Shown in pieces: positions 1 through 63,350 of a DNA stretch of 64,000 bases. The DNA is from Styela clava (lineage: Eukaryota > Chordata > Ascidiacea > Stolidobranchia > Styelidae), in the NCBI RefSeq assembly GCF_964204865.1, contig NC_135254.1:4345001-4409000 (forward strand), read 5' to 3'. A program made the position numbers and the translations under genes. Under the pieces are notes generated by a model. That model did not search any database. It saw nothing but the letters and a program-made list of their open reading frames with translations, and was not told the DNA's origin. The stretch's first letter is position 1. Every line of letters starts with the position of its first letter.

Positions 1-195
1 CTTTGTTTATAGTTTATTATTTTAAACCCTGGCTCTTTGCTATTTCTTGTAAAGTTGTTCAGCTTCATTCTGCATCGGATGGCAAAGAACTTGCGATGTA
101 TCACATAAAAGATTTGAACGCAATGAATCGTATTCTACGTTACTGACAGACGGATCAATTAAAATCGCAACTTTTGCAAATATCGTTTTTATTGT

Positions 196-262
196 TGAGA
201 ACTTCTTCTCAACATTTAGCATAGAACATTCATTCATGATGCGCAACCAATCGTCACAAATC
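196..262 (+). promoter_or_regulatory. Conserved upstream block of U1 genes (candidate PSE region)
   Basis: About 67 bp immediately before each U1 start are almost invariant across all eight copies, from TGAGAACTTCTTCTCAAC through TTTAGCATAGAACATTC to the start. snRNA genes of this kind are driven by a proximal sequence element centred about 50-60 bp upstream, which places TTCTCAACATTTAGCATAG as the candidate. Equivalent blocks precede the other copies at 951, 1705, 2444, 3168, 3923, 4646 and 5405. No TATA box lies at -25, consistent with a Pol II snRNA promoter, but PSE sequences diverge between phyla and I cannot confirm it by motif. Conservation alone could also reflect homogenisation of the array. 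Confidence 0.5.
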
Positions 263-423
263 ATACTTACCTGACGAGGCAGTCAACCGTGATCACGTAA
301 GCGGTTCTGCCTAGGCGAGGTCCAGTCATTGCACCCAGACTAAATTGACACTAGCGATTATCCCAAATGTGGATAACTCGGTCGTGTAATTTCTGCTAGT
401 GGGGACTGCGTTCGCGCTATCCC
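263..423 (+). ncRNA. U1 snRNA, copy 1 (class A)
   Basis: Recognised as U1 by its parts in order: the 5' end ATACTTACCTG that pairs with 5' splice sites; stem-loop 1 with a GATCAC-containing loop for U1-70K; stem-loop 2 with the loop ATTGCACCCA for U1A; stem-loop 3 with arms GATTATCC and GGATAAC; the Sm site in GTAATTTCTG; and stem-loop 4, GGGACTGCGTTCGCGCTATCCC. The length to the final CCC is 161 nt against 164 nt in human; the exact 3' end is not fixed by sequence. Class A features are loop 1 GATCACGTAA and ATTGACACTAG after stem-loop 2. Specific to this copy, the left arm of stem-loop 2 reads TCCAGTC instead of TTTAGTC, which breaks two pairs with GACTAAA. Confidence 0.95.
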
Positions 424-1017
424 TTTTATATATTTGTTCACTACCAATAATCTTGTTGTCTTACGAGTTAGGTCAATGAGCGGCCACGTTGCTTTCATTA
501 GTTGTGGCCGTATTGATCCTCGTTTGGGTGTGGTATATTTCTCATGAACAATCTTACAATCCATTCATTGATATTATTCCATGACATGCCTTGCCATTAT
601 CCAAGTTATTTCCTTTATCCAACCGTCTCTAGATTGATTCCTTATTTGCAGTTCCACATTCAGATTGTGTTGCCATTGATTGAGCAATAGAATGAGCGCC
701 AAGATTTGGAAGTATAATTGTTTGCTGTCCAAGGGTACGTATTGGGGCTGTGGCTCTTTGTTTATAGTTTATTATTTTAAACCCTGGCTCTTTGCTATTT
801 CTTGTAAAGTTGTTCAGCTTCATTCTGCATCGGATGGCAAAGAACTTGCGATGTATCACATAAAAGATTTGAACGCAATGAATCGTATTCTACGTTACTG
901 ACAGACGAATCAATTAAAATCGCAACTTTTGCAAATATCGTTTTTATTGTTGAGAACTTCTTCTCAACATTTAGCATAGAACATTCATTCATGATGCGCA
1001 ACCAATCGTCACAAATC

Positions 1018-1178
1018 ATACTTACCTGACGAGGCAGTCAACCGTGATCACGTAAGCGGTTCTGCCTAGGCGAGGTTTAGTCATTGCACCCAGACTAAAT
1101 TGACACTAGCGATTATCCCAAATGTGGATAACTCGGTCGTGTAATTTCTGCTAGTGGGGACTGCGTTCGCGCTATCCC
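1018..1178 (+). ncRNA. U1 snRNA, copy 2 (class A)
   Basis: Full-length 161-nt U1 with the canonical 5' splice-site-pairing end, a U1A loop ATTGCACCCA with fully paired TTTAGTC/GACTAAA arms, Sm site AATTTCTG and a GCGTTCGCGC stem-loop 4. Stem-loop 1 carries the class A loop GATCACGTAA. Apart from that loop every recognised element is intact, so this is a good candidate for an expressed class A gene. Confidence 0.95.
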
Positions 1179-1771
1179 TTTTATATATTTGCTCACTACC
1201 AATAATCTTGTTGGTTTTCGAGTTAGGTCAATGAGCGGCCACGCTGCTTTCATTAGTTGTGGCCGTATTGATTCTCGTTTGGGTGTGTTATATTTCTCAT
1301 GACCAATCTTACAATCCATTTATTGATATTATTCCATGACATGCTTTGCCATTATCCAAGTTATCACTTTATCCGACCGTCTCTAGATTGATTCCTTATT
1401 TGCAGTTCCACATTCAGATTGTGTTGCCATTGATTGAGCAATAGAATGAGCGCCAAGATTTGGAAGTATAATTGTTTGCTGTCCAAGGGTACGTATTGGG
1501 GCTGTGGCTCTTTGTTTATAGTTTATTATTTTAAACCCTGGCTCTTTGCTATTTCTTGTAAAGTTGTTCAGCTTCATTCTGCATCGGATGGCAAAGAACT
1601 CGCGATGTATCACATAAAAGATTTGAACGCAATGAATCGTATTCTACGTTACTGACAGACGAATCAATTGAAATCGCAACTTTTGCACATATCGTTTTAA
1701 TTGTTGAGAACTTCTTCTCAACATTCAGCATAGAACATTCATTCATGATGCGCAACCAATCGTCACAAATC

Positions 1772-1932
1772 ATACTTACCTGACGAGGCAGTCAACCGTG
1801 ATCACGTAAGCGGTTCTGCCTAGGCGAGGTTTAGTTATTGCACCCAGACTAAATTGACACTAGCGATTATCCCAAATGTGGATAACTCGGTCGTGTAATT
1901 TCTGCTAGTGGGGACTGCGTTCGCGCTATCCC
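1772..1932 (+). ncRNA. U1 snRNA, copy 3 (class A)
   Basis: Full-length 161-nt U1 with all recognised elements. It has the class A loop 1 (GATCACGTAA) and ATTGACACTAG. The closing pair of stem-loop 2 is a U-G wobble because the left arm reads TTTAGTT. The Sm site AATTTCTG and stem-loop 4 match copy 2. Confidence 0.95.
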
Positions 1933-2510
1933 TTTTATATATTTGCTCACTACCAATAATCTTGTTGGCTTTCGAGTTAGGTCAATGAGCGGCCACGCTG
2001 CTTTCATTAGTTGTGGCCGTATTGATCCTCGTTTGGGTGTGTTATAGTTCTCATGACCAATCTTACAATCCATTTATTGATATTATTCCATGACATGCTT
2101 TGCCATTATCCAAGTTATCCCTTTATCCGACCGTCCTTGCTTGCAGTTCCACATTCAGATTGTGTTGCCATTGATTGAGCAATAGAATGAGCGCCAAGAT
2201 TCGGAAATATCGTTATTCTCTGTTTAAGGTACGTATCGGAGCTGCGGCTCTTTGTTTATAGTTTAATATTTCAACCCCTGGTCCTTGCTATTTCTTGTAA
2301 AGTTGTTCAGCTTCATTCTGCATCGGATGGCAAAAAACTCGCGATGTATCACATAAAAGATTTGAACGCAATGAATCGTATTCTATGTTACTGACAGACG
2401 AATCAAATAAAATTGCAACTTTTGCACATATCGTTTTTATTGTTGAGAACTTCTTTTCAACGTTTAGCATAGAACATTCATTCATGATGCGCAACCAATC
2501 GCCACAAATC

Positions 2511-2670
2511 ATACTTACCTGACGAGGCAGTCAACCGCGATCACGAAGGCGGTTCTGCCTAGACGAGGTTTAGTCATTGCACCCAGGCTAAATTGACCCT
2601 AGCGATTATCCCAAATGTGGATAACTCGGTCGCGTAATTTCTGCTAGTGGGACTGCGTTCGCGCTGTCCC
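2511..2670 (+). ncRNA. U1 snRNA, copy 4 (class B)
   Basis: U1 of 160 nt; it is one base short because stem-loop 4 has TGGGACTG where other copies have TGGGGACTG. Class B: loop 1 is GATCACGAAG, the form found in most animals, closed by perfectly paired AACCGC/GCGGTT arms, and the sequence after stem-loop 2 is ATTGACCCTAG. Small changes include GGCTAAA for GACTAAA in stem-loop 2 and GCTGTCCC in stem-loop 4. The spacer that follows lacks about 30 bp present in the other units. Confidence 0.93.
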
Positions 2671-3234
2671 TTTTATATATTTGCTTAGGTCAATGAGCGG
2701 CCACGTTGCTTTCATTAGTTGTGGCCGTATTGATCCTCGTTTGGGTGTGGTATATTTCTCATGAACAATCTTACAATCCATTCATTGATATTATTCCATG
2801 ACATGCCTTGCCATTATCCAAGTTATTTCCTTTATCCAACCGTCTCTAGATTGATTCCTTATTTGCAGTTCCACATTCAGATTGTGTTGCCATTGATTGA
2901 GCAATAGAATGAGCGCCAAGATTTGGAAGTATAATTGTTTGCTGTCCAAGGGTACGTATTGGGGCTGTGGCTCTTTGTTTATAGTTTATTATTTTAAACC
3001 CTGGCTCTTTGCTATTTCTTGTAAAGTTGTTCAGCTACATTCTGCATCGGATGGCAAAGAACTCGCGATGTCTCACATAAAAGATTTGAACGCCATGAAT
3101 CGTATTCTACGTTACTGACAGACGAATCAATTAAAATTGCAACTTTTGCACATATCGTTTTTATTGCTGAGAACTTCTTCTCAACATTTAGTATAGAACA
3201 TTCATTCATGATGCGCAACCAATCGTCACAAATC

Positions 3235-3395
3235 ATACTTACCTGACGAGGCAGTCAACCGCGATCACGAAGACGGTTCTGCCTAGGCGAGGTTTAGTCA
3301 TTGCACCCAGACTAAATTGACCCTAGCGATTATCCCAAATGTAGATAACTCGGTCGTGTAATTTCTGCTAGTGGGGACTGCGTTGGCGCTATCCC
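3235..3395 (+). ncRNA. U1 snRNA, copy 5 (class B, stem-loop variants)
   Basis: Full-length class B U1 with intact 5' end and Sm site. It departs from the others at three structured points: GAAGACGG in stem-loop 1 makes the closing pair C-A; ATGTAGATAAC in stem-loop 3 breaks a pair; and stem-loop 4 reads GCGTTGGCGC, replacing the UUCG tetraloop that is invariant elsewhere in the array. Three structural changes in one copy suggest relaxed selection, so this may be poorly functional. Confidence 0.9.
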
Positions 3396-3989
3396 TTTTA
3401 TATATTTGCTTACGACCAATATCCTGTTGGCTTACGAGTTAGGTCAATGAGCGGCCACGTTGCTTTCATTGGTTGTGGCCATATTGATCCTCGTTTGGGT
3501 GTGGTATATTTCTCATGAACAATCTTACAATTCATTCATTGATATTATTCCATGACATGCCTTGCCATTATCCAAGTTATTTCCTTTATCCAACCGTCTC
3601 TAGATTGATTCCTTATTTGCAGTTCCACATTCAGATTGTGTTGCCATTGATTGAGCAATAGAATGAGCGCCAAGATTTGGAAGTATAATTGTTTGCTGTC
3701 CAAAGGTACGTATTGGGGCTGTGGCTCTTGGTTTATAGTTTATTATTTTAAACCCTGGCTCTTTTCTATTTCTTGTAAAGTTGTTCAGCTTCATTCTGCC
3801 ATCGGATGGCAAAGAACTCGCGATGTATCACATAAAATATTTGAACGCAATGAATCGTATTCTACGTTACTGACAGACGAATCAATTAAAATTGCAACTT
3901 TTGCACATATCGTTTTTATTGTTGAGAACTTCTTCTCAACATTTAGCATAGAACATTCATTCATGATGCGCAACCAATCGTCACAAATC

Positions 3990-4150
3990 ATACTTACCTG
4001 ACGAGGCAGTCAACCGCGATCACGAAGGCGGTTCTGCCTAGGCGAGGTTTAGTCATTGCACCCAGACTAAATTGACCCTAGCGATTATCCCAAATGTGGA
4101 TAACTCCGTCGTGTAATTTATGCTAGTGGGGACTGCGTTCGCGCTATCCC
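3990..4150 (+). ncRNA. U1 snRNA, copy 6 (class B)
   Basis: Full-length 161-nt class B U1 with loop 1 GATCACGAAG and paired stem-loops 1 to 4. The Sm region reads GTAATTTATGC rather than GTAATTTCTGC and the preceding stem has ACTCCGTCG for ACTCGGTCG. The core AATTT is retained, so Sm binding is plausible. Confidence 0.94.
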
Positions 4151-4712
4151 TTTTATATATTTGCTCACTACCAATAATCCTGTTGGCTTTCGAGTTAGGT
4201 CAATGAGCGGCCACGTTGCTTTTATTAGTTGTGGCCGTATTGATCCTCGTTTGGTGTGTTATATTTCTCTTGACCAATCTTACAGTCCATTTATTGATAT
4301 TATTCCATGACATGCCTTGCCATTATCCAAGTTATCCCTTTATCCAACCGTCCTTGCTGGCAGTTCCACATTCAGGTTGTGTTGCCATTGATTGAGCAAT
4401 AGAATGAGCGCCAAGATTCGGAAATATCATTATTCTCTGTTTAAGGTACGTATCGGAGCTGCGGCTCTTTGTTTATAGTTTAATATTCAACCCCTGGTCC
4501 TTACTATTTCTTGTAAAGTTGTTCAGCTTCATTAAAGAACTCGCGATGTATCACATAAAAGATTTGAACGCAATGAATCGTATTCTACGTTACTGACAGA
4601 CGATTCAATTAAAATTGCAACTCTTGCACATATCGTTTTTATTGTGGAGAAGTTCTTCTCAACATTTAGCATAGAACATTCATTCATGATGCGCAACCAA
4701 TCGTCACAAATC

Positions 4713-4873
4713 ATACTTACCTGACGAGGCAGTCAACCGCGATCACGAAGGCGGTTCTGCCTAGGCGAGGTTTAGTCATTGCACCCAGACTAAATTGACC
4801 CTAGCGATTATCCCAAATGTGGATAACTCGGTCGTGTATTTTATGCTAGTGGGGACTGCGTTCGCGCTATCCC
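4713..4873 (+). ncRNA. U1 snRNA, copy 7 (class B)
   Basis: Full-length 161-nt class B U1. The Sm region is changed to GTATTTTATGC, so the usual AATTT core becomes ATTTT; this still resembles a general Sm site (a U run bounded by purines). The remaining elements, including the 5' end and U1A loop, are intact. It shares the TTATGC change with copy 6, suggesting a recent common origin. Confidence 0.93.
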
Positions 4874-5471
4874 TTTCATATATTTGCTCACGACCAATAA
4901 TCCTGTTGGCTTTCGAGTTAGGTCAATGAGCGGCCAAGTTGCTTTCATTACTTGTGGCCGTATTGATCCTCGTTTGGGTGTGTTATATTTCTCATGACCA
5001 ATCTTACAATCCATTTATTTATATTATTCCATGACATGCCTTGCCATTATCCAAGTTATCCCTTTATCCAACCGTCTTTAGATTGATTCCTTATTTGCAG
5101 TTCCACATTCAGATTGTGTTGCCATTGATTGAGCAATAGAATGAGCGCCAAGATTCGGAAATATCATTATTCTCTGTTTAAGGTACGTATCGGAGCTGCG
5201 GCTCTTTGTTCATAGTTTAATATTTCAACCCCTGGTCCTTGCTATTTCTTGTAAAGTTGTTCATGTTCAGTTTCATTCTGCCATCGGATGGCAAAGAACT
5301 CGCGATGTATCACATAAAAGATTTGAACGCAATGAATCGTATTCTACGTTACTGACAGACGAATCAATTAAAATTGCAACTTTTGCACATATCGTTTTTA
5401 TTGTTGAGAACTTCTTCTCAACATTTAGCATAGAACATTCATTCATGATGCGCAACCAATCGTCACAAATC

Positions 5472-5534
5472 ATACTTATCTGACGGGGCAGTCAACCGCG
5501 ATCACGAAGGCGGTTCTGCCTAGGCGAGGTTTAG
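5472..5534 (+). pseudogene. Truncated U1 snRNA, copy 8
   Basis: Only the first ~63 nt of a U1 gene remain: the 5' end and all of stem-loop 1 (class B loop), ending in GGCGAGGTTTA just before stem-loop 2. The U1A loop, Sm site and stem-loop 4 are missing, so a stable U1 snRNP cannot form. The splice-site-pairing segment is also altered, from ATACTTACCTG to ATACTTATCTG, and CTGACGAGG has become CTGACGGGG. The upstream block is intact, so transcription into downstream DNA could still occur. This marks the right end of the array. Confidence 0.9.
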
Positions 5535-6090
5535 GTTATACCTTACCATTGCAAAATTTTAGACGCTTCAATTCAGAGTGTTTTGGAGAGTTAGCACTTA
5601 CAAACTGGCTCCCATCAGCAAAACTATAATTTTTATTCAAAACATCAAACTGTTTGCCGCTCACAGGTTGATCATTGTAACAGCATAAACAAAGAAAACA
5701 TCATTAACATAATAATCATTTTTAACATGCTAATTCGACAGCGTTTTATTGACATTGTGAGAAAAAGGTCATTGTGCATTCGCATAAGCAACACAGTGGT
5801 ACATCATTATAGAGCAACAAGAACGGGATTTCAAATGGGCATCTTGTGACCTCTTGCGCTCCCAGTATAACAACCACGGCACTAGACCATGGTATTGCCC
5901 AAAACTTGAATAACCACACAATAGCTTAATTACATTTTGGTACCATAATTTTCATTCTTTTATTAATACAAAATTTTCACACATCGTGATAACTTTTAAA
6001 TATCATTGAACCCGTCAATCACAAGAATTTTTGCTTAAATAAGAACAAATATTATTTTTATCATCAATTATTATCATCATTATTATCAAG
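5535..6090. other. Spacer between U1 array and DTC exons
   Basis: AT-rich sequence with no ORF of note. I see no RING finger, zinc finger or start exon for the downstream DTC gene. The last 60 bp are TTATCATCA-rich and could act as a polypyrimidine-like splice region before 6091. Confidence 0.4.
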
Positions 6091-9015
6091 TTCTGGTTTC
6101 ATTTATCCAGATGCAGAATCTCAGTCTTCAAGTCAAACTGCTTCTGGTCCAAGAATCATCAAACAACAACCATCTGGAGGGAGGATGAAAAGCAGTATGT
6201 CGCAAGAATCACTGCCAGGATATGAAGGATGGACTATTGTCATCACCTACTCATTTCCTGCTGGAAGTCTGATGGTGAGTTATGAAACAAATTTAATTAT
6301 TGGTCGGAAAATAAATTACAGATTTACTAGAATCAAGATTCTTAATCAATAAGGTTTTTGTTTTTAATATTAATCCCCATTGCACATTAGCATATTTGAA
6401 CATCGATTGATTTCAATTTCTTTCCTGAATTACCGGTAAATACCAGTTCAATACAAGCAGCCACAAATATTTAGTAGGGTGGTTCACGTATTACAGCCTC
6501 CTCCACCATCAAGTCCATGCTTCCGAAAACGAATAACTGGCTAAACAATCTCTTACGTGTTATAGACTGGTAACCGGATTAGAGGCTGTGGTTCGCCACT
6601 TGATTAAGTCTCTTATAGGCTTTTCCCTCCCCAGTGTAAATATGGTAATTCTGTCATATCTTATTTTTAATGAAATTCAAGCTATCAGACACTGATATCT
6701 AATGATATTTAAGGAGATATTAATATTTCAAATTTTCTGGTTCTGCATTTCCTATCCAATTTATTTCATCCTGGGTGAGGTGGTTGGCATGGATTTGAAC
6801 CGAGATGTTCAATATTTGATGTCAGCTTAGTTCAGTCCAACACTTCAACCATTAGGCCTGCGGTTCCAAAACTTTTTGTTTGTGCGGCGATGAATTATAT
6901 GGAAAAAACTGCTAACGGCGCACTAAGGGAAAAAATTTGAATAAAATTCTATATTGTGATCATTAATGTGTAAATTAATGATCATTAATATGTTTGTAAA
7001 CATATACGCCAAATGTCAACTTTTCTCTGCCTGATTTTATTTTGAAACTCTAAACAAACTCTGTTCAACAGATAAATAAACTGCAGCCTGGGAAATTGCA
7101 GCAAGCAGTGTCCATAACTATTGTTACGTAACACTAGTCCACCGCGGTACACCCTTTGGTAACCACTGCGTTAGGCCATTGCACAGTCCAGAAGCTTGAA
7201 AGAAGTATTGCTAAATGTTTGCATTCACTCACATGAGGTATTGCTTCTCATAGAAATATACAGAATCAGGCAGTATTTTGTATAATGCTTATATGGGTTG
7301 ACTCTGGTTCATGCTTTGTCCATCTATAATTAATTTAAACTGGTATGCTGATTGAATTCAGTTCTAATGGAAATCAAAGTTTTGAAAGGTTTGTTATTGA
7401 GAAAAAGTTCGAATATAGAAGCCATTTGTGCAGTAAAATCGTAACATAGCAATATATAGATCATGCTTGTTAAAACCTGGGTAATATCAAATTGTTATTT
7501 GCTCAAACTTAAGGTGTAATTAGATTCAATCGTGCAGTAAAATCATTGCATAGCCAAATATTTAGTGGGCTTCTTCATAAGTTCTGATTTCAATGTATGA
7601 TTGAGTTATCGGGTTGTCAAGTTGAATCAATGTATTGGTAATGGAAATATCAAGTATTTTGATAAACTAATTGTTAACCTCTGCTAAATCTTCATAGATA
7701 TTCTGATATTTATATCAGTTTAACAAACCCCCAGGTATGAGAGATGATTAGTTTTTTTTTTCCTCAGGGGGTTTCATATGAAGCTCAAGAATTCACTGAA
7801 TATTTGCCACGGAATGATGGACGGATATGTTGCGGCTTACTCTATCGAGCATTCAATGCAGGATGGATTTTTAAGATTCAGGAAGTTGGTGACAGAAGAG
7901 GAAAAATTGTTTGGAACGATGAGTTTCCTCATAAGACTAATAAAACTGGAGGACCTGAGAAGTAAGTACTTTGTGTTCTTTATGTTTGATGGGTATTTAC
8001 TTCCTAAAATGTTAAGAAATAGGAAGGAATAAAACAAATGCAAAGTCTTGTTATGTATTGCACTACAAATCAATTCAAAATTCTCTCAAAATCCTTATTT
8101 TGGTATCTAAATCGTCATTTATGGGAAATAATAAAAAAAGGGATTCACAAGCCCTGGTATTTAAGTTATTGCTCACAATGACCTTAGGATTTATTTACTA
8201 AATTTTCAAAGCATAAAGACATATCGGATAAAATAGTTTTCCTAAAAATTATTCAAATTTATTTATTTGGATTTTACCAACCTTGTTCAAATGAAAACTA
8301 AGCTCCTTTTTATAGGAAAATGATTTATTTAATTCAGAGTGACTTAATGTTATTTAACTGCCAGGGTCTGGTCTAAATTTCCGGACATATCCACCTAACC
8401 ATTATGATCACAACTGGTATTTATCAAATAGATTAGAAATCTAAATTATGATTCTAAAATGTTGTATTTTGGGCATCTGCGCTATGGTTGTGATTCTCAG
8501 TACCAATGGTTTTCTTATAATTCACTCTGAACAAAACTCAAGACAAGTTGAATTTTGACATTTATTTGGAAGCCAGTGTCATAATTTGTTCCTGTTAAGA
8601 AGTTGCAATTTCAGACTTTTTAACAAAAACTAAATTGGTCGTTATGATAAATTTAAATGGAGTATTCTTGGAGTATTCGTACCAAAATGGTGCACAACCT
8701 GACATAGTATTGTGTACCAAGTTAGTTTTCAGGTTGTGCGTTACCTTGGTACAAATACTTCCGGAGCGCCTAAATGTTTGTCAACCAAGAATTTTTCTTC
8801 AACTCCCTAGGTGCAAGTTCTGTACTGCAATACTCTGAAGTCAGGATCCACCATTTACCAAACTTCCATTCTTTTTCTATGTACATGTTCAATGAGAGTT
8901 CATCAAATATTTTTTTTTCAGCGATGGATATCCTGATCCAAACCATACAATGAAACTGAAAGAAGCATTGAAGGCAAAAGGATTTGAGTTTGATGCATCA
9001 ATATCGGTGAGATAA
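6091..9015 (+). CDS. Deltex C-terminal (DTC) domain protein, three 3' exons
   Basis: Exons 6091-6274, 7768-7961 and 8922-9015 join in frame (GTGAGT, GTAAGT donors; CAG acceptors) and end at TAA 9013-9015. The protein reads a Ser/Gln-rich stretch, then GYEGWTIVITYSFPAG, YLPRNDGR, GKIVWND, PHKTN and DGYPDPN, ending EALKAKGFEF. These follow the order of the DTC domain of Deltex-family E3 ubiquitin ligases (strand after the Gly-rich start, the YLPD segment, the VWN..HKT motif, GYPDPNYL and a closing helix). DTC binds ADP-ribose/NAD and works with a preceding RING in DTX1-4 and DTX3L. No RING is in the window. Differences from typical DTC: no Cys before YLP, and PHKT in place of HHKT. The first coding exon is unknown; translation could begin at the Met codons near 6185-6200, giving an almost bare DTC. 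The 5' boundary of the first exon is uncertain. Confidence 0.75.
6475..6665 (+). repeat. SINE family A, 3' part (in DTC intron 1)
   Basis: Resembles the right two-thirds of the tRNA-derived SINE at 46364-46700: GGTGGTTCACGTA, the CCTCCACCA.CAAGTCCATGC block, TGGTAACCGGA and the ending TATAGGCTTTTCCCTCCC. The tRNA-like head is missing, as in a 5'-truncated retroposon. Confidence 0.7.
6772..6868 (-). repeat. SINE family B (tRNA-like head), fragment
   Basis: Read on the minus strand it begins GGCCTAATGGTTGAAGTG (box A-like) and contains GGTTCAAATCCATGCC (box B), followed by ACCACCTCACCCAGGATG. The same string recurs in degraded form near 10500, 10815, 13440 and 51670, so this is a second, older tRNA-derived SINE family. 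Confidence 0.6.
8670..8762. mobile_element. Short foldback element (~93 bp) in DTC intron 2
   Basis: Two arms are inverted complements: GAGTATTCGTACCAAAATGG...GCACAACCTG and CAGGTTGTGCG...CCTTGGTACAAATACTTCC. The same terminal style (GGCGCTCC.GAAGTAT.TGTACCAAG) occurs in the larger foldback element at 12863-13109, suggesting one MITE family. No clear target duplication is visible. Confidence 0.55.
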
Positions 9016-13961: not shown

Positions 13962-14210
13962 AGGCAGTGTGGCGCATCGTGCTAAGCGTTAGGAATAATT
14001 TTGCATCGTAATGTTGGAATCCTATGCCGGATTGATTATGTTCGAGAACAATGCTCCTCTCTGTCGTAGGGTGGTTCGCGTAACAGCTCCATGCATCTGA
14101 AAACTGGTCAACTGATCCCATACCCGATATGGAAGGGTGAACCGGACGTGAGACCGTGGTTCGCCATATGGTTAAGCCGCCTTATCGGCCTTCCTCTCCC
14201 TCGGTCGAAG
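13962..14210 (+). repeat. SINE family A copy, degraded head
   Basis: Starts GTGTGGCGCATCGTGCTAAGCGTTAGGAAT (box A region of the family) and runs to GCCATATGGTTAAGCCGCCTTATCGGCC, matching 46364-46700 throughout but with a damaged box B region (GGAATCCTATGCC). Antisense and sense small ORFs here are repeat artefacts. Confidence 0.75.
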
Positions 14211-14393
14211 TTTGAGGCTTCTTGGAATGTTTCGATTTTGAATGGGCCTGTGAACAACAGCGCCACCAATCAGATATATAGTAAATCTAATATTTCTATT
14301 CAGAACATTTTTCAAATTATGAACACCCATCAAATCTAAAACATTTAGGGAAAGTATTGAATGAAAATAGATTGAAAATATGTCTGCTTTGTT

Positions 14394-15541
14394 CAGTGGC
14401 GTATCTAGGTAAAATGGCGCCCATGGCAAAGATTTAAAAATGCGACCCCTCCTTCGCTTGTTTCCTTTTTTCGTTTACATGAAATTGATGGCTCTCAACT
14501 ACGCAACATAACAAGCAATTTAATAACTACACAATAAACAGTAGACGGTCGGGCAATAACAAAATCTTAGAATAGTATATTTCGTGACGCAAATTTGCCA
14601 ATGATTTCATCAAAAATTTTTTTTTTTTTGTTTCACCCCTCTCTATACTTAATATAGCCAGATCACAAAGCTTTCCTGGCTAATTGAAGATCGAAGGTAT
14701 GACAGAATCAATTTTAGTTCACTAAACGACCGATCGCAATTTTCTATGGATACTGCCAATGTCAGCAAAATTTGCAAAGCCATCTGGAGATTGGGGAAAT
14801 TCAAAAAAGACTCTTTGACACACACTGTTTTCTTGTCATAGTCTATATCTTACATGGGCCTGATGCTTCCACAACCAAATTTCGATGTTTTAGCTGAAAA
14901 ATAGCTCGAGGAATTTGTTGAGATTTTGGCACGAGGCTAATTGTTTTCCACTAAGAGGTTGAATGTGGATGGCTTCCAATGGAACCAAGATGCTCTCGCA
15001 GCACAGGATCAAGGACGGCAAGGAATTTTATTAAGCCAAGAAAATGACCAACATTTGAATTACTATCTGCTTGAAGTGACTCCCTGTGCCCTTGCAAAGC
15101 GAGATTTTGTTCCGCCAGACACTTTATTTCATGCGATATTCATTTAAGAATCTCACTACATTTTTCCCTTTCCTTTTTAATTTGTACATGGAAATTGGCG
15201 TCAATAATTCCGGTTTATTGCCCCAATTTCTTTCCACGCTGTAAAACATTCTCTCTCATTGTACGAATATTCATAAATGTTCACTCCAGTACGATATCAG
15301 AGCTAATATGAGGTGCAGTAAGTCCAGTACCGTATCAATTTCGGCTTATTAATGTTGAATCACCGTCAATTGCGCTAAGTGACGGAACAAACTGCATTGA
15401 TCGTTGGAAACTGCAAACTGCATTGACTTTGGTTAAATTTGTTGAAAATTATACAATTAGAACTTTTCGCGTTTTTTGCGCCCCCGTCCAAACGGCGCCC
15501 ATGGCACGAGCCATGGCTGCCATACCCTAGATACGCCACTG
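14394..15541. mobile_element. Non-autonomous DNA transposon, CAGTGGCGTATC ends (1148 bp)
   Basis: The left end CAGTGGCGTATCTAGGTAAA and the right end CCCTAGATACGCCACTG are inverted repeats, each followed inwards by a GCGCCCATGGCA motif. The flanks are GCTTTGTT and CCTTTGTT, a 7-of-8 target duplication, which fits hAT. No transposase ORF. A related fragment lies at 31297. Confidence 0.75.
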
Positions 15542-16934
15542 CCTTTGTTGCCTATTTAAAGCGGGTCAATTCGGAGCAGACTATGTTCGCACTGAACAGA
15601 ACTCAGCGATATAAGCGGCCACTAAAGAACTGGTTAAAATGAACGCTTCCGGAAAACTATTATGAACTATCCCTGGCATGAGCATATCAATTTTGTCCAA
15701 TTTTCACTATGCTGAATCAACATTTGTTTGATTGGATTCTTTAGGAATCATCATGTTGCCATATGAATGGTTGCCATGAAAGTTTCCGCAAAGTTCATCA
15801 TAGTTAGCTCTACAACTATGTCAAACCAGATGATATCCATTCAAGTGTTTTTTGAACCAATTTACATTAATAATAAAAAAACATATTTTATGCTGAGATG
15901 GATTATTGGTTCAAAACTAGTGATGTTTGCAAAAAGAGGCAATTTCTTTTTTAAAACATGTTTTCGTGTGTCCACGGCGAACATGTCTATGGACACCAGG
16001 TTTAGTTTAGTATTGCTGGAAATCTATTGCCTTCCTACGCATATTTTTATTACAAAATTCTCTAAATCTCATAATTTTAGATTGTAATTGTCATGTTGGG
16101 TGGATATGGTGGGCATACACATTCAACTTCATCCTAAGTTATGTTTGCCTCGGGTAATTTGCTGTTGTTACGTTGTTTTGTTTTATATGATTAAATTCAT
16201 TGAATGATTAGCTCCATATTCTCTTGACATTGATTTTCTAATAGGCACGCGGAATACTGGAATACACGAAAAGTTCAGTCTTACAAAATTTTGAAGGCCT
16301 TTATTTCTGATCATTTATTATATGATACTCGTGGCCTCAAAAATTTTTCGAAATCACTGCCTCGAATTTTTGTTTCCGCCAAATATGAAAAAAATCTCTT
16401 TTTTGTTGATTTTCGAAGCCTGTACAGAGTTGTGAACAAAACACATGCTTGTGAATAAAGTTACTTCCAAAAGCAAATTGATATTTGAATTGGATGCACT
16501 AAATATGCGTAAAATTGATTTATAATTGTTTTTAAGACCTTCTTCTCATAAAGTTACACTTTGTTTACCACCATTTTAATATTTTAACTTGTGACTTCAA
16601 TTACTATTAAAAATCTTTGTCCAAAGTCGTTGGCAAGTTGCTGATATTATTTTAGTTTTAAACCGTCAGGCTCACATATATATTTTCATGGAATAATAGT
16701 GTTCCCTCATAAATCCAATCTTTTTTGTATAGTTTTTCATTGATTGCAAATATTACCCCTAATTACTGAAAGAGCCTAAGTAATTTAAAATATTTGTTTT
16801 GTTGTCTGTAAAATTTAATTCTCTGTAGGATTGAATATAAATTATAAATTTGAAAAAATATTTTCAATGGGGGAGCTTTTTTACTGTGCGGGATTTCGTT
16901 GAAAACCCCAGGTTTATTAGTTCCTTGTTTTCTG
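15542..16934. other. No recognised feature
   Basis: AT-rich sequence with scattered ORFs of up to 106 codons, including one at 15767-16087 that is hydrophobic and low in complexity. I see no domains, exons or repeats I can name. Confidence 0.3.
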
Positions 16935-19900
16935 CACCACTGTGAAGCTAGCAGGACTTTCAGCCAGAATATTTTTACACATTGAATATAGGTTCTACGC
17001 GCAAATAGTTTTCACTTATAGTTACATATAAAATTGAAAAAGGTGATCAAAATATAATTTTAGTACGGAAATACATGAAAAATCTTCAAACTGACTGAAT
17101 ACAATGAATTTGACAAAAAATATAGTGTTTAAGAAAAGACCAACTCAGCGAAAAATGAATTTTCAAGTATTCCGCAAATACGAAGTTTCGAAAAATTATC
17201 GTATTTAAAACGTCGATTTCTCGAAAACCGCCAATAAAGGCAGCACCACGACACATTCGAAAAAAAAAACTGATTCGTCATAGATTTGATTTTGATATGT
17301 CAGAACAGTAGCAGCACGTTTTGACTTGGCCATATATAATACCAAAAATAGCGTATAATTTTCAATTTTAATAACTATGTAGATATAACATATTTAAAAA
17401 CGGTTTGGTATTTCAACTGAATTTACTGGACAATTCATCAAATACTTTTTTCTCTTGGTCATACATCAAAACTGTACGTTCATTAAACTTGTAATAAGTG
17501 GGCAAATCTTAAAATACCAAAAAATTATTTTACGCCCTCTTGTGGATTTTTTCCGGAATTTTTAAAAAAACATCGTTTTTGAAAAGGCGATTTCTCAAAA
17601 ACCGCCAATAAAGGCAGCACTACGTCACATTCGGAGAAAAGCAGATACCTTATAGATTTAATTTCATTATGTTAGAACAGTAGCAGCACGTTTTGACTTG
17701 GCTTGGCCATATATAATACCAAACATAGCGTATAATTTTCAATTTTATTAGTTATGTAGATATAACATATTTAAAAACGGTTTGATATTTCAACTGAATT
17801 TACTTGATAATGCATCAAATACCTTTTTTTTCTTGGTTATACATCAAAACCGTACGTTCATTAAACTTGGAATAAGTGGGCAAATCTTAAAATAACAAAA
17901 AATGATTTTACGCCCTCTTTTGGATTATTTCCGGAATTTTAAAAAAAAATATCGTGTTTGAAAGGGCGATTTCTCAAAAACCGCCAATAAAGGCAGCACT
18001 ACGACACATTCGGAGAAAAGCAGGTACCTTATAGATTTAATTTCATTATGTTAGAACAGTAGCAGCACGTTTTGACTTGGCTTGGCCATATATAATACCA
18101 AACATAGCGTATAATTTTCAATTTTATTAGTTATGTAGATATAACATATTTAAAAACGGTTTGATATTTCAACTGAATTTACTTGATAATGCATCAAATA
18201 CCTTTTTTTTCTTGGTTATACATCAAAACCGTACGTTCATTAAACTTGGAATAAGTGGGCAAATCTTAAAATAACAAAAAATGATTTTACGCCCTCTTTT
18301 GGATTATTTCCGGAATTTTAAAAAAAAATATCGTGTTTGAAAGGGCGATTTCTCAAAAACCGCCAATAAAGGCAGCACTACGACACATTCGGAGAAAAGC
18401 AGGTACCTTATAGATTTAATTTCATTATGTTAGAACAGTAGCAGCACGTTTTGACTTGGCCATATATAATACCAAACATAGCGTGTATTCAAAATTTTAT
18501 AAACAATGCAGACGTAACATATTTAAAAACCGTTTGCTATTTCAACTAAATTTACTAGATAATTTATCGAGCATTTTTTTCTCTTGGACATACATATATA
18601 CTGTACGTTCATTAAACTTGAAATAAGTTGCGGAAAGTATAAAATACCAAAAACCAAGTTACGTCCTCTTGTGGATTACCTTCAAAATTTCAAAAAATTA
18701 TCGTATTTGAAATAGCGATTTCTCGAAAACCGCCAATACAGGCAGCACAACGACACATTCGGAGAAAAGCAGATACCTCATAGATACGATTTTCATATGT
18801 CAGAACAGTGGCAGCACGTTTTGACTTGGCCATATATAATACCAAACATAGCGTATAATTTTCAATTTTATTAACTATGTAGATATAACATATTTAAAAA
18901 CGGTTTGGTATTTCAACTAAATTTACTGGATAATTTATCAAATACTTTTTTTCTCTTGGTCATACATCAAAACCGTACGTTCATTAAACTTGGAATAAGT
19001 GGGCAAATCTTAAAATACCAAAAAATGATTTTACGCCCTCTTGTGGATTTTTTCCGGTATTTTTAAAAAAATATCGTTTTTGAAAAGGCGATTTCTCAAA
19101 AACCGCCAATAAAGGCAGCACTACGACACATTCGGAGAAAAGCAGGTACCTTATAGATTTAATTTCATTATGTCATAACAGTAGCAGCATGTTTTGACTT
19201 GGCCATATATAATACCAAACATCGCGTGTATTCAAAATTTAATAAACAATGCAGACGTAACATATTTAAAAACCGTTTTATATTTCAACTAAATTTACTA
19301 GATAATTTATCGAACATTTTTTTTCTCTTGGGCATACATATATTCTGTACGATCATTAAACTTGGAACAAGTTGCGGAAAGTATAAAATAGCAAAAACCA
19401 AGTTACGTCCTCTTGTGGATCATCTTCAAAATTTCGAAAAATTATCGTATTTGAAATAGCGATTTCTCGAAAACCGCCAATAAAGGCAGCACTACGACAC
19501 ATTCGGAGAAAAGCAGATACCTGATAGATTAAACTTCATTATGTCAGAACAATAGCAGCACGTTTTGACTTGGCCATGTATAATACCAAACATAGCGTGT
19601 TTTCAAAATGTTATAAACAATGCAGACGTAACATAATTTAAAAACCGTTTGTTATTTCAACTAAATTTACTAGATAATTTATCAAACAACTTTTTCTCTT
19701 GGACATACATATATACTGTACGTCCATTAAACTTGGAATGAGTTGCGGAAAGTATGATTTAACAAAAAAATCATTTTACGCCCTCTTGTTGGTTATTTTC
19801 AAAAATTTATCGTTTTTGAAATAGCGATTTTTCAAAAACCGCCAATAAAGGCAGCACTACGACACATTCGGAGAAAAGCAGATACCTTATAGATTCGATT

Positions 19901-22900
19901 TTATTATGTCAGAACAGTAGCAGCACGTTTTGACTTGGCCAATCATAATACCAAACATAGCGTATAATTTTCAATTTTATTAACTATGTAGATGTAACAT
20001 ATTTAAAAACGGTTTGCTGTTTCAACTAAATTTACTGGATAATTCATCAAATACTTTCCTCTCTTGGCCATACATCAAAACTGTACGTTCATTAAAATTG
20101 GAATAAGTGGGCAAATCCTAAAATAACAAAAAATGATTTGACGCCATCTTGTGGATTTTTTTCGGATTTTCAAAAAAATATCTTTTTGAAATAGCGATTT
20201 CTCAAAAACCGCCAATAAAGGCAGCACTACGACACATTCGGAGAAAAGCAGATACCTCATAAATTCGATTTCATTATGTCAGAACAATAGCAGCACGTTT
20301 TAACTCGGCCAAATATATTACCAAACATAGCGTGAATTCAAAATTTCATAAACAATGCAGACGTAACATATTTAAAAAGTGATTTGTATTTCAACTAAAT
20401 TTACTAGATAATAAATCAAACATCTTTTTCTATTAAACATACACCAATACTGTACGTTCACTAAACTTTGAATAAGTTGCGGAAAATATGAAATACCAAA
20501 AAAATCATTTTAAGCCCTTTTGTGGATTATTTTCAAAATTTCGTAAAATTATCGTTTTTTAAAGAGCGATTTATAGAAAACCGCCAATAAAGGCAGCACT
20601 ACGACGCATTCGGAGAAAGGCAGATACCTTATAGATTTGATTTTATTATGTCACAACAGTAGCAGCACGTTTTGACTTGGTCATATATAATACCAAACAT
20701 AGCGTGTATTCTTCAACTTTTGAATAATGCTGACGTTAAAAATTAATAAAGCTGTCGTATTTTAAACAAATTTACTGAATACTTGTTCAAATATAATTTT
20801 CCCCCAGTCACACATCAATACTGAACAAAGTGAGAAATATATTTGATCCAATATCTAGCAAATTAAGTTGAAATACAAGCTTTTTAAGTTCGTTACGTCC
20901 ATTTTAATATAAAATTTTGAAAACACGTTATGTTTGGTATTATACATGACCAAGTCAAAGTGTGCTGTTACTGTTTTGCTATGGTGAAGTCGAATCTATA
21001 AGTTATCTGATTTGCTCAGATAATCAAAATAAATAATCAAAAAATGTTTTGTTATTTTAAGATTCGCCCACTTATTCCAAGTTAATGAACGTACAGTTCT
21101 GATGTATGACCGAGAGAAAAATTTGATGAATTATCCAGTAAATTTAGTTGAAATACCAAACCGTTTTTAAATATGTTACATCCACATTGGTAATAAAATT
21201 GAAAATTATACGCTATGTTTGGTATTATATATGGCCAAGTCAAAACGTGCTGCTACTGTTTTGACATATGAAAATCGAATCTATAAGGTATCTGCTTTTC
21301 TCCGAATGTGTCGTAGTGCTGCCTTTATTGGCGGTTTTCGTGAAATCGCTATTTCGAATACGATAATTTTTTGAAATTTTGAAGATAATCCACAAGAGGA
21401 CGTAACTTGGTTTTTGATATTTTATACTTTCCGCAAATTATTCCAAGTTTAATGATCGTACAGTATATATGTATTTCCAAGAGAAAAAAATGTTCGATAA
21501 ATTATCTAGAAATTTTGGTGGAAAACCAAACGGTTTTTAAATATGTTACGTCTGCATTGTTTATAAAATTTTGAATACACGCTATGTTTGGTATTATATA
21601 TGGCCAAGTCAAAACGTGCTGCTACTGTTCTGACATAATGAAATTAAATCTATAAGGTACCTGCTTTTCTCCGAATGTGTCGTAGTGCTGCCTTTATTGG
21701 CGGTTTTAGAGAAATCGCCCTTTCAAACACGATATTTTTTTGAAAATTCCCGAAAAAATCCACAAGAGGGCGTGAAATCATTTTTTGCTATTTTAAGATT
21801 TGCCCACTTATTCCAAGTTTAATGAACGTACGGTTTTGATGTATGACCAAGAGAAAAAAGTATTTGATGAATTATCCAGTAAATCCAGTTGAAAAACCAA
21901 ACCGTTTTTAAATATGTTATATCTACATAGTTAATAAAATTGAAAATTATACGCTATTTTTGGTATTATATATGGCCAAGTCAAAACGCGCTGCTATTGT
22001 TCTGACATATTAAAATCGAATCTATAAGGTATCTGCTTTTCTCCGAATGTGACGTAGTGCTGCCTTTATTGGCGGTTTTCGAGAATTCTCTATTTCAAAT
22101 ACGATAATTTTTTGAAATTTTGAAGGTAATCCACAAGAGGACGTAAAATGTTTTTGGTATTTTATACTTTTCGCAACTTATTCCAAGTTTAATGAACGTA
22201 CAATATATATGTATGTCCAAGAGAAAAAGATGTTCCATTAGATATCTAGTAAATTTAGTTGAAATACCAAACGGTTTTTAAATATGTTACGTCTGCATTG
22301 TTTATAAAATTTTGAATACACGCTATGTTTGATATTATATATGGCCAAGTCAAAACGTGCTGCTACTGTTCTGACATAATGAAATTAAATCTATAAGGTA
22401 TCTGCTTTTCTCCGAATGTGTCGTAGTGCTGCCTTTATTGGCGGTTTTTGAGAAATCGCCTTTTCAAAAACGGTATTTTTTTAAAAATACCGGAAAAAAT
22501 CCACAAAAGGGCGTAAAATCATTTTTTGTTATTTTAAGATTTGCCCACTTATTCCAAGTTTAATGAACGTACAGTTTTGGTGTATGACCAAGAGAAAAAA
22601 GTATTTGATAAATTATCCAGTAAATTCAGTTGAAATACCAAACCGTTTTTAAATATGTTATATCTACATAGTTAAAAAAAAGTGAAAATTATACGCTATT
22701 TTTGGTATTATATATAGTCAAGTCAAAACGTGCTGCTACTGTTCTGACATATTAAAATCGAATCTATAAGGAATCTGCTTTTCTCCGAATGTGTCGTGGT
22801 GCTGCCTTTATTGGCGGTTTTCTAGAAATCGACGTTTTAAAAACGATAATTTTTTGCGAAACTTCGTATTTGCGTAATACCTGAAAATTCATTTTTCGCT

Positions 22901-24548: not shown

Positions 24549-27500
24549 CAGTGTTCCCTCTAAGGTGTGCGCGTGTGCGCGCGCACACAGCTTTCAGAGG
24601 CCGCGCACACGCATAGATTTACTGCGCACAGACGTATTTCGATGTAATCTATCAATGTTCTCGGTTGGCAGGTTGAGAAAGTTTGTTATTGGATTCGCTA
24701 AAAGGATGCATTTCTTTGAAAGTTAAGATGGCATCATGTGCGAAGAAGGTACCAGCAGTAACTGTAGCGGCCATGATCATAAGCATTGACCGCTGTTATA
24801 GTAACTTAACTGGCAACGATATCATGGGGTCATTGAACCTTGACCATTTTGGCATTGGCGGGATCTCTTTCGGCGTGAGTCGCTTGGAGGTAGGACGTAT
24901 AAATTTGTATCCTATTCAATCGGAGGGGTTTTAGCATTATTAATTAGGCGTCGTTGAAATTTACATCATATAATTCTGTTTTTCCTATTTTGTATAGTTA
25001 TTATTGGTCCCTCCTGTGTAATAGCACTGTATTTTACCGGATTTTTGTTTGACAACTATTTCATCATTATTTGACTCATATTTCACCAACTTTTAACTCA
25101 GCAATAAACGTATTTGGACAATCATTTCGAGACTTTGAAAAAAAAACTCAGACAGAACCGCGTCATCAAAAATAAAGTGCCTGTACAACTATTTATTCCA
25201 GTCGCCCTAACGAGCACGTCGCCATCGTATGGTTCTGAGCCGTTATAGTAACATAATCAATAGCTGCCATAACCTAGCTGCTGTATCCATTGCATGTTTG
25301 TCCACTTATGCTGTAGTTGAAATAAGCTTAAGATAGCCTACTAACAGAACTGTTACTACTAATTGTATTGTTAAGTAGCCTGAGGTTGTAGGCTACATTG
25401 TAATCCGTTAATTTGTCCGTTACTCATTGAGCCATTTTTCAACCAGGTTAGTTTTATTAGGCTGTTAGTTACCGTGAACCCTGCAACAGAATAGGCTAGA
25501 AAAAACCAGCTTACGTTTAAAAGAAGCTAAGTAAACAGTTCTGAGCCTCGCTTAAGCTTTTTGGGAACTGATGCGATTGTGCTGTACTCTGCACATTGCA
25601 TTACTTTCAGCAAAATGTCAACTTTGATTAAAAAAACCTTTGAGATGTTTTTCTATTCATTCAATTGAATACTTAGATCAACGAAGCCAATAAAAAACTG
25701 TCATATCTGAATCATTTTCACAGAATATTACTTTTTGTTTCATGGCTCAACATACTGATAAAGTATTATCCTGTAGCTGTAAAGACTAACTTTTCTGCTC
25801 TGTATGTCAGCCGAACCAAAACGTAAAAGGACTGCTAACTCGTTCAAAAAAGATTGGTTGGATGAAGCAGTGATAACGGCAACTCCCACGGCTCATGATG
25901 ATCAATGTGTATATTTACGTGATGTATTTGTATATGATGAAAATGAAGGCATTATTACATGTCTTTATTGTCATGATGCCATGGTTTCTGGTGAATTTTC
26001 AAATGGCAAAAAGTGGTACAATAATGTATGGAAGCTTGACTTTTTAAAACGGCATTTAAAAAGTAAGACCCACCTATATGGTGTACAAAAGCTCAGAAAC
26101 AAGAACCCTTTATTACCAGCCCATGGAATATTAAAAATGCTAAGTGAAACCCCAGAGGAACGTAATCGGAAGCGTGCATGTAAGGAAGAGATTGTAATTC
26201 TTATTGACAACATTCTATTGGCAGTAAAGATGAACAGTTCTTTACTTTCTGTACAAGATATCAACGACCACATGGCTAAGTATGTTCGAATACCTGAAAG
26301 TTGGCGAAGCAAAAATTACGCTTTTGAATTTTTGGAATATATTGATGTAGTTATTAGCCAGGAAATAATGGAAGAAATAGCTTCTGCCGATTTTCACACT
26401 CTAACTGTAGATGAAAGTACAGATATATCCGTAAGCAAATGTCTGATTTTATATTTTAAATACAGAGTCTCTTTTGAATATAAAACTAGATTTGGTGGAA
26501 TCATACAACTAAAGTCGTGTGATGCTTCATCTATTGTCACTGCAATTGAAGAGTTTTACAAAAAATATAGACTTGAGCTGGATAAAATGGTTATGTTTAC
26601 ATCCGATGGTGCAGCAGTAATGCTAGGTAGAAGAAATGGTGTGGCGGCGAAGCTCAAAGAGCGTATACCACATTTAGTACAACAACACTGCGTTGCACAT
26701 CGGGAAGATTTGGGCATAGCTGATACATGGAAAGAAGTGAAGCTATTGCAAGATATCGAAACGTTAATGCGAACTATTTATTCCATGTTTTCTCGTTCTA
26801 CAATCAACCGCTGTAAATTTCAAGATATTGCTGCAGCTTGTGAAAACGAAGCGATTGCTTTTAAACCACTTAATGAAGTTCGATGGTTGTCACGTCACTT
26901 TGCTCTGCAGGCCATCATTAAAAACTATGATAGCTTGATTGCATATTTTGAAGAGATGAAATCTAATGACCCAATTTCTAAATATTGTTTTAAAAAATTA
27001 AAAAATAATGGAGTTCGTATAGCTTTGGAAGTTTTAAATGCGGTTTTTGAGCAACTAGCTGCTTTGTGTAAAATTTTCCAAAGACAAGGATTGACACCGA
27101 TTGATGCACAGAATTTTGCACATGCAAAAATAAATAAACTACGGCAGAAGTATCTTGGTGACACAACATTTTGGGGTGAAAGAGTGGATAATTTGTTAGC
27201 TAGAATATCGGAAGAAGAAATTGCCACTTTTGACTCTGAAGGACTGCTGGATTTTATAAGGCTTTTATGTGATCATCTGATAGAAAGATTCCCAGAAGGA
27301 GAGGTACAAGACTGGGTAGCTTTTGATTGTGCTGCATTGAAATCCCCTTGCTATACTTTTGGTATCACCGAAATTAAAGCTCTGTGTTCTAAATATGAGT
27401 TTGTTTTGCCAGAACGAAGTATAATTATTGATCAATAAACAGATTTTAAATACGCAATAGCTGAAAAAATTAAGGCTGGAGTTGTTAGCACTTTTGCTGA

Positions 27501-44014: not shown

Positions 44015-45178
44015 TCAATACGAGCCCTTGTCAGTTAATATTCCATCATGAAGTAAGCAATTTTTAAGTGAGCCTGTTATTGGTGTTAGAGTTGTGTCTG
44101 TGATAGATCCTGGATATAAATCTGGAACCATTGTTAAAGCACCATGAGGAGCTAAGCAAACTAGCGTTTTAACAGTATGACATTGCTTGTAATCCAAAAA
44201 AAAAAGATTGTGTTTAAATTCAAATCGGAAAATTGGTTTTTTTTTGAATTCCGTTGCATCCAAGACCAGTGTTATATGGCCGAATCCTAATTCTTGGTAA
44301 ATTGGAGGCATAACTGTTTTCATTAATCCATGTGAAGGCTGCAAGTCCACCATACTAAAAAGTGCATTGCCAAACACTTCAAAAAATTCTGCTCATTGTT
44401 GAGGCCAAAACTTTGAGCATCCAGCCGGCAAATTCCATATGCAGAGCATGTCTGCAGATGGATAGGGTTGTGAAGAGCTCGTTTTTTTACTAACTTTCCG
44501 CTTGCAACTTTCATTGCTAACACACGGTTGATATTTGATTAGGTGTAGGTATGGCTCAAAGCAGTTAAACAAAGTCTCAAAACTGTCTCGACTCATGCCT
44601 GTGAAACACCTGAAATAACTGTCCTAGCACACTGTCCCAGCTAAACTTCCATTTGTCCTCCATCATTCTGTCAACCTTTCTCTGTTTCAAATTTCTCATT
44701 TTCTCGCTTTCCCTCAAATCCTTTTTTAGCTTTTCTATCGTATTTCCCAATCTGAAATTTCCACTGAGAAGTAATTCATTTTCAGTAACCTGCTGGCTGA
44801 CCAATGTGAACATAAAGTGTAGCATTTTCTCCATTCGCCTCACTTAAGACTTTCCTTGACATTCTGCAAGATCTCACGAGGTTGTAGTAGTTTGTTGTGC
44901 CTACTTTGCCTTGCACTTCTTTTTACAGATCTACGGTCTCTAGCACTCCTCCTTTGTCTAAGACCAGTAGGCACCCTAATATCAGGCAAATGTTGCGAAT
45001 TTCGCCTTGGATCACTCCAGTGCAATGAGCAGACACATTGCCAGCGCCTCTAATCTATTCGGAAGAAGCTCTTATAATGTGACAAAAGCTCCTTTTTTAG
45101 TGGAACATAGTAATACAGGTCGGAGTTTCTCCAGTTAGAATTACACTCTGCGACGAAGCAGTCCCAATGCTCCGTCAT
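44015..45178 (-). pseudogene. THAP-domain plus DDE_4 transposase remnant (ISL2EU/Harbinger-like)
   Basis: Minus strand from ATG 45178: WDCFVAECNSNWRNSDLYY, a stop (TAG at 45050-45052), then QCVCSLHW. This gives the THAP pattern C-x4-C...C-x2-H. After a linker (GLRQRRSARDRRSVKRSA) and a helical region (LLSGNFRLGNTIEKLKKDL, 44843-44577), frames change several times. The DDE part (44377-44015) reads GFGHITLVLDATEFKKKP (first Asp), LDYKQCHTVKTLVCLAPHGA and GILTDKGSY (second Asp), then a stop; the final catalytic Glu segment is absent. THAP with this DDE family is typical of ISL2EU-type transposons. The copy is dead: at least one stop, frameshifts and a 3' truncation. Confidence 0.75.
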
Positions 45179-52089: not shown

Positions 52090-52340
52090 CCATGCAGAAT
52101 GTCCTTAAAAACAGGGCTTCATAAACTGCTAATTTACAAATATCCTTGAAAAACAGGTCTTTTTAACTGCTAATTTGCAAATGTCCTTAGAAACAAGGCT
52201 TTATACCTGCCAATTTACAAATGTCCTTGAAAAACAGGGCTTCTTAACTGCTAATTTGCAAATGTCCTTAGAAACAAGGCTTCATACCTGCCAATTTACA
52301 AATGTCCTTGAAAAACAGGGCTTCTTAACTGCTAATTCAC
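52090..52340 (+). repeat. Minisatellite, ~81-bp dimeric period, after the TMEM101 stop
   Basis: GCTAATTTGCAAATGTCCTT and GCCAATTTACAAATGTCCTT alternate; identical points recur 81 bp apart (52165 and 52246), with a ~40-bp half-period. Probably in the 3' UTR or just downstream. The 65-codon ORF here is a repeat artefact. Confidence 0.85.
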
Positions 52341-63024: not shown

Positions 63025-63350
63025 TGGAAAGGATTCTGGGAAATTTCGGCGTAGGAAATCTCGCCGCATAGGAAAATCCGCCGCAAGAGCATTTTGCTGT
63101 AAAACGAGTATTCGTGACAAAAACAATTAAGTTTTATTAAAAAAAGATTCGTTAGTCAGGAGCATACTCTAACCCTATAAACATAACTGTTTTTATCACA
63201 AATACTTGTTTTACAGCAAAATGCTTTTGCGGCAATTTTTCATGCAACAAATTTTCCTATGTGGCGACATTTCTTGCGACGAGATTTCCTATGGCGAAAT
63301 TTCTTGCGGCGAGATTTCCTACGACGAAATTTCCTGCTGTGAATTTTCCA
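63025..63350. repeat. Foldback region of GGCGAAATTTCC-type short repeats
   Basis: A ~14-bp word (GGAAATTTCGCCGTA / GAGATTTCCTATGGCG and variants) is repeated in one orientation at 63035-63085 and in the other at 63220-63350, with TTTTGCTGTAAAACGAGTAT and ATACTTGTTTTACAGCAAAA as inner inverted arms. Probably a small foldback transposable element with subterminal tandem repeats. Confidence 0.7.

Follow-up and report, generated by a model that had tools for sequence, protein, structure and literature searches.

U1 copies at the right edge of the array

The window analysed here, a stretch of 64,000 nucleotides from the ascidian Styela clava (contig NC_135254.1, hereafter C5; C5:4345001-4409000), opens inside a tandem array of genes for the U1 small nuclear RNA (snRNA), and its first part (1..5534, + strand) constitutes the right-hand end of that array, which spans 172 kb. 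The U1 family of Rfam (RF00003) was recognized by cmscan at the gathering threshold at seven places on the + strand, with scores of 130.3-142.0 bits (E 1.1e-32 to 4.5e-36) against a gathering cut-off of 69.5 bits, and each of these seven full-length matches covers model positions 1-166 of 166. The start-to-start spacing of the copies inside the window is 723-759 bases. An eighth copy (5472..5534, +), whose 5' end is ATACTTATCTG, ends at nucleotide 63 of U1 (window position 5534); it scores 37.7 bits and was detected at a lowered threshold alone, and, lying where the array ends, it probably represents a pseudogene. Thus, the tandem U1 array with units of about 0.75 kb and eight copies, seven of them full length, that had been proposed in an earlier note from the sequence is borne out, whereas the high Rfam scores predicted at all eight starts were obtained at seven of them and failed at the eighth. 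The interval 1-5534 also fits the in-window part of the array, with position 1 being a cut within it and about 167 kb more lying leftward. In the remainder of the window (5535-64000), no resumption of the array was found to an E value of 1. Insertion of a Dada-U1 DNA transposon, an idea taken from a passage in PMC3706591, was considered as the cause of the truncation of the eighth copy and found no support, given that this same interval holds no U1 remainder at E <=1.

All seven full-length copies lie on the + strand and differ from one another, and none is free of every tested defect. Pair 53-88 is broken in copies 1 (263..425, 130.3 bits), 2 (1018..1180, 134.4 bits) and 3 (1772..1934, 130.6 bits), the first of which has also lost pair 61-80. 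Copy 4 (2511..2672, 131.6 bits) presents two broken pairs and lacks one base of the 3' stem, and it is followed directly downstream by about 30 bases fewer than in the other units. Pairs 28-39 and 101-109 are broken in copy 5 (3235..3397, 133.8 bits), and pair 93-118 in copy 6 (3990..4152, 138.8 bits). The copy nearest to an intact gene is copy 7 (4713..4875), which reaches the top score of the window (142.0 bits) and retains every tested pair, its defect being A127T, a change where the Sm site begins. When the fold of this copy was compared with shuffled sequences, a z value of -2.36 was obtained, and 3 of 200 shuffles were equally good or better.

The 5' end AUACUUACCUG, which pairs with 5' splice sites, is present in seven of the eight window copies. 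Both the loop I motif GAUCACG and the loop II motif AUUGCAC, which we take to be the U1-70K and U1A sites, respectively, occur in all seven full copies, and the 3' half of loop I is altered in copies 1-3, where GUAA replaces GAAG. The Sm site reads AAUUU(C/A)UG in six of the seven full copies and AUUUUAUG in copy 7, the Rfam consensus being AAUUUgUGg. According to Rfam, U1 is the sole family of the unit, since no other family was found to an E value of 1 on either strand of window 1-7000. ARAGORN, run with bacterial settings, detected no tRNA in the window, and the U1 pattern of the window had no match in viral contigs. The open reading frames at 3651-4001 and 5145-5483 occupy spacer sequence plus the initial bases of U1.

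Upstream of copy 7, at about -58 to -29, lies a promoter-like block, CTTCTCAACATTTAGCATAGAACATTCATT (4655..4684, +), which resembles the sequence found at equal distance from the dispersed U1 genes described below and which the other units of the window carry in slightly altered form, with a few changes. The array consensus has CATA at -43, and this motif is found at -42 to -44 in all six dispersed genes examined. Judging from the sequence, the shared block looks like the proximal sequence element (PSE) of snRNA genes.

Extent of the array and distribution of U1 in the genome

Beyond the window, the sequence was analysed at C5:4170001-4350000 and C5:4650001-4670000. The former stretch, joined to the window, contains 241 U1 matches, all on the + strand, of which 233 have a U1 start (223 being near full length) and eight are 3'-end fragments. 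The first U1 start is found at C5:4178407 and the final base of U1 sequence is C5:4350534, and the left edge was also read, with array DNA starting at about C5:4178073. The 223 near-full-length copies comprise 92 distinct U1 sequences, and their 5' end ATACTTACCTG is intact in 198 and altered in 25. The eight 3'-end fragments extend from nucleotide 123, 127 or 129 to 163, follow a U1 start at a distance of about 226-232 bases (C5:4180903, 4188464, 4192307, 4199189, 4208901, 4215786, 4217396 and 4219006) and are as many as the units with a length of 845 or 857 bases, which also number eight. In the second stretch, C5:4650001-4670000, all 26 U1 matches are near full length and the limits of the stretch fall inside an array on both sides.

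The search was extended to the genome assembly (376.6 Mb in 379 contigs, C5 being a contig of 24.9 Mb), in which the 27-base U1 5' end has 626 exact matches and, at <=3 mismatches, 869 matches (439 forward and 430 reverse), with none for a reversed-pattern control. The 'at least eight' units of the earlier note therefore hold as a minimum and are far too low an estimate. All 42 genome matches that were scored, out of 5897 candidates, exceed the Rfam cut-off, and 36 of them are on C5. Among the matches listed or scored, array-type sites on C5 are located at 2.38-2.53, 3.29 and 3.71-3.73 Mb on the minus strand and at 2.73, 3.46-3.53, 4.18-4.35 and 4.65-4.67 Mb on the plus strand. This one chromosome-scale contig carries several tandem U1 arrays, and the region under study forms the right edge of one of them.

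Copying of multi-unit blocks

The array comprises 232 units, mostly of 0.72-0.76 kb, 172 of which are distinct. When units were compared at lags 1-59, adjacent units were the least similar (mean 12-mer Jaccard 0.42, with no lag-1 pair above 0.95), and runs of similar units reappeared at longer lags. Seven of the listed similar runs were aligned base by base. The longest block copy comprises 17 units (12,420 bases, 99.92% identity), followed by one of 13 units (9,558 bases, 99.76%), whose two copies overlap, one of 10 units (7,569 bases, 100%) and four of seven units (5,103-5,242 bases, 99.78-99.96%); one of the compared blocks, C5:4341268-4346509, extends into the window. Since such runs recur at longer lags with 99.76-100% identity, the turnover of the array takes place via multi-unit blocks, and the recent duplication of 5-12 kb blocks reshapes it. 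Satellites have higher-order repeats, to which this block turnover is comparable.

A second, dispersed class of U1 genes

Apart from the arrays, a second U1 class with a different stem-loop II (GCTTGGCCATTGCACTTGGGCCAGGT, versus GTTTAGTCATTGCACCCAGACTAAAT in the array type) was found at eight dispersed places at <=3 mismatches, located, among the matches listed, on contigs C1, C2, C10 and C18, so that tandem and dispersed U1 classes co-occur in one genome. The six dispersed genes that were read have a U1 of 164 nucleotides and no second U1 match in the approximately 3.2 kb around each, and they show 0-9 differences of 164 in U1 versus 105-127 of 163 in a gapless comparison of the downstream bases. 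Several of them also align upstream, with 81-98% identity over 229-536 bases spanning U1 and its upstream side, and the promoter side of the dispersed genes is therefore partly conserved.

Two of the dispersed genes, L003 and L001, were compared with the array consensus, from which they differ at 12 and 15 positions, respectively. These differences change six pairs, none of which is broken, and all three changed pairs of L003 are changed on both sides, which gives a compensated stem-loop II. The absence of broken pairs among these six, compared with 42 of the 62 paired variants in the array, corresponds to a Fisher p of 0.002, in which the cells are not fully independent.

Constraint, decay and the possible role of the array

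We consider it probable that the array is one of U1 genes that supply bulk U1 and are copied in blocks, beside a better conserved dispersed class. The sequence of the unit of about 0.75 kb shows a promoter-like (PSE-like) block about 60-40 bases upstream, the 163-nucleotide U1 and a spacer. According to this explanation, SNAPc-dependent transcription by RNA polymerase II would most likely yield U1 snRNA from the intact copies, whose joint output would provide a bulk supply of U1, plausibly in the oocyte and early embryo; the eight dispersed places would form the second, better conserved U1 class. Most array copies would drift, since one among hundreds of copies matters little, and many of those in which defects are observed would probably have lost their function.

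Several observations weigh against this explanation. Across the 232 units, variable sites amount to 83/163 in U1, 34/60 in the promoter (-60..-1) and 231/450 in the spacer; the fractions in U1 and spacer are equal (p = 1), and 15 of the 20 sites at -60..-41 are variable. The 99 distinct U1 variants include 42 that break a pair (37.8 expected), 20 that keep it (14.4), 12 in core motifs (17.0) and 25 elsewhere (29.8), the expected counts being those of random changes with a matching transition rate, and the pair-breaking and motif shares do not differ significantly from chance. At least one pair of the Rfam structure is broken in 190 of the 223 near-full-length copies, and 100 are still broken after omitting the three commonest broken pairs, with 43 of the 45 Rfam pairs counted and the two that the consensus of the array already shows as T-T left out. 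Every tested pair and motif is retained by 28 of the 223 copies, and 18 copies equal the consensus. Moreover, the sharing of the promoter-like block with the dispersed genes is modest, the best 24-base matches being of 15-17 bases, a level that 0-5 of 100 shuffles attain for the various genes, and it is by analogy that a role in oocytes and embryos is plausible. It may therefore be that most of the array is dead.

Site counts reach saturation when copies are numerous, and a matched-size test was therefore run, which yielded median odds ratios (U1 versus spacer) of 0.69, 0.76 and 0.78 for runs of 7, 15 and 25 units, and of 0.96 and 0.95 when the runs comprised 50 and 100 units. Pi, with values of 0.035 for U1, 0.039 for -60..-1 and 0.051-0.054 for the spacer, is also mildly indicative of constraint. 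The constraint on array U1 is weak and probably not absent, and this test tempered the view that the array is under no selection whatsoever. In samples from other arrays the odds ratio was 0.70 (25 units, p 0.28), 0.37 (15 units, p 5e-4), 0.70 (3 units, p 0.41) and 0.23 (12 units, of which six are distinct, p 6e-8), a fifth sample of two units being too small; these samples surround top-scoring copies, which biases them towards constraint, and they were not used as a conclusion. Since array U1 exceeds the spacer no more than mildly in conservation, it is the Rfam match and the dispersed class that argue for an RNA gene, and not conservation within the array. The claim that the conserved product is RNA is accordingly upheld as regards the Rfam match, and it does not extend to a U1 markedly more conserved than the spacer among array copies.

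A different account would regard the arrays as mostly a U1-derived satellite, in which a functional unit was amplified, spreads by block duplication in the manner of satellite DNA in general and decays, the working U1 being made by the dispersed genes. Such an account, which we regard as unlikely, fits the sequence data nearly as well as an array of genes that supply bulk U1. It would accommodate the equal fractions of variable sites in U1 and spacer, the pair-breaking variants at near the random rate, the higher-order copying of blocks and the good conservation of the six dispersed U1 genes relative to their unrelated downstream flanks. The 25 altered 5' ends would also be in agreement with it, and 11 of these belong to U5C, the largest 5'-end variant class, each copy of which carries 3-6 further defects; the idea that variant 5' ends provide a new splicing specificity is disfavoured for this class by those same defects. 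On the other hand, decay of a satellite is harder to reconcile with a U1 pi about one third below that of the spacer, with the median odds ratios of 0.69-0.78 in runs of 7-25 units, with the intact 5' end of 198 of the 223 copies and with the two dispersed genes compared, in which no changed pair is broken, as well as with the two more constrained samples from other arrays (odds ratios of 0.37 and 0.23), biased as they are by sampling around top-scoring copies.

It is very improbable that the copy number was inflated by misassembly, through haplotype or repeat expansion. Although such errors can yield block copies like those seen (<=12.4 kb, 99.8-100% identity), they would not be expected to produce 92 distinct U1 sequences among 223 copies, 172 distinct units of 232 and seven full window copies that are all different, and the 180 kb fetched, which lie within the 24.9-Mb contig, contain no N. 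As regards the numbers of the array and dispersed genes, two structurally maintained U1 classes at about 100:1 are tentatively proposed, and with some doubt: about 860 array copies (the 869 matches less the eight dispersed places, with 259 read in two contiguous stretches) would show higher-order block turnover resembling that of a centromeric satellite and largely escape per-copy selection, as opposed to eight dispersed ones under clearer constraint.

Surroundings of the array

To the right of the array, window positions 14011-16935 are collinear (77-91% identity in pieces) with L050 (C5:4175027-4177809), the DNA directly left of the array, and thus DNA resembling the left flank sits 8.5-11.4 kb right of the array. 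This collinearity may stem from an ancient duplication of the flank or from a mobile element common to both places. Two tandem-repeat arrays of about 370-base units (17182-20721 and 21047-22856), about 80-92% alike and in opposite orientation, form a large inverted satellite pair. Transposase-like open reading frames are located at 25783-27438 (+), where the DUF4371 match of 33.4 bits is slightly above the cut-off of 32.1, and at 44015-44392 (-), with a DDE_Tnp_4 match. A PEX19 coding stretch at 54644-55366 (-) ends in CAIM, has a Pfam Pex19 match of 146 bits and matches PEX19 structures; it identifies the DNA as eukaryotic and, with the transposase-like frames, points most probably to an animal. 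Other repeats comprise a tandem repeat with a period of 81 bases (52093-52337), a near-palindrome of about 650 bases (56362-57015) and an imperfect inverted repeat (63039-63289) next to GGCGAAATTTCC-rich tandem repeats.

Comparison with known snRNA gene arrays

The embryonic U1 genes of sea urchin and Xenopus are tandem. The organization found in Styela clava is like theirs in having a U1 gene in each tandem unit and another class of U1 at other genomic sites, and differs from them in its unit of mostly 0.72-0.76 kb, its 869 U1 5' ends, the presence of both array orientations on C5, the block-wise copying and the 92 U1 sequences in 223 copies. The primate RNU2 array contains U2, in a unit that is longer and more homogeneous. 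It is likewise a tandem snRNA array under concerted evolution, as indicated by reference titles, whereas here similarity is lowest between adjacent units, and copying proceeds by multi-unit blocks.

A passage in PMC4291461 describes U1 isoforms as developmentally regulated in Xenopus, sea urchin and mouse, multi-copy snRNA genes as evolving in concert, and vertebrate assemblies as not reflecting snRNA gene organization. U1 clusters are reported on almost all chromosome pairs of hake, and were mapped in cichlids and Astyanax as well, in the relevant part of PMC4696792, and U snRNA genes are counted among the tandem repeats of morabine grasshoppers in that of PMC7754599. A linked 5S-U1 tandem unit of a crustacean, known from a title cited in PMC3464664, differs from the present unit, which by Rfam, to an E value of 1 in window 1-7000, contains U1 alone. 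A U1 array of comparable size was not found among the open-licence papers that the searches covered, which does not prove that none has been described.

What is described here is a large and well-resolved case of the known tandem and dispersed organization of U1 genes. The view of U1 itself is unchanged by it. The whole array is readable, with its multi-unit block copying, two separate U1 classes in one genome and weak per-copy selection, and concerted evolution and the gene dosage of an essential RNA become directly measurable. If two classes at about 100:1 are indeed maintained, natural DNA could reveal the number of intact U1 genes that an embryo requires, and whether small nuclear ribonucleoproteins take up mutant U1s, such as those of the 25 copies among 223 in which the 5' end is changed.

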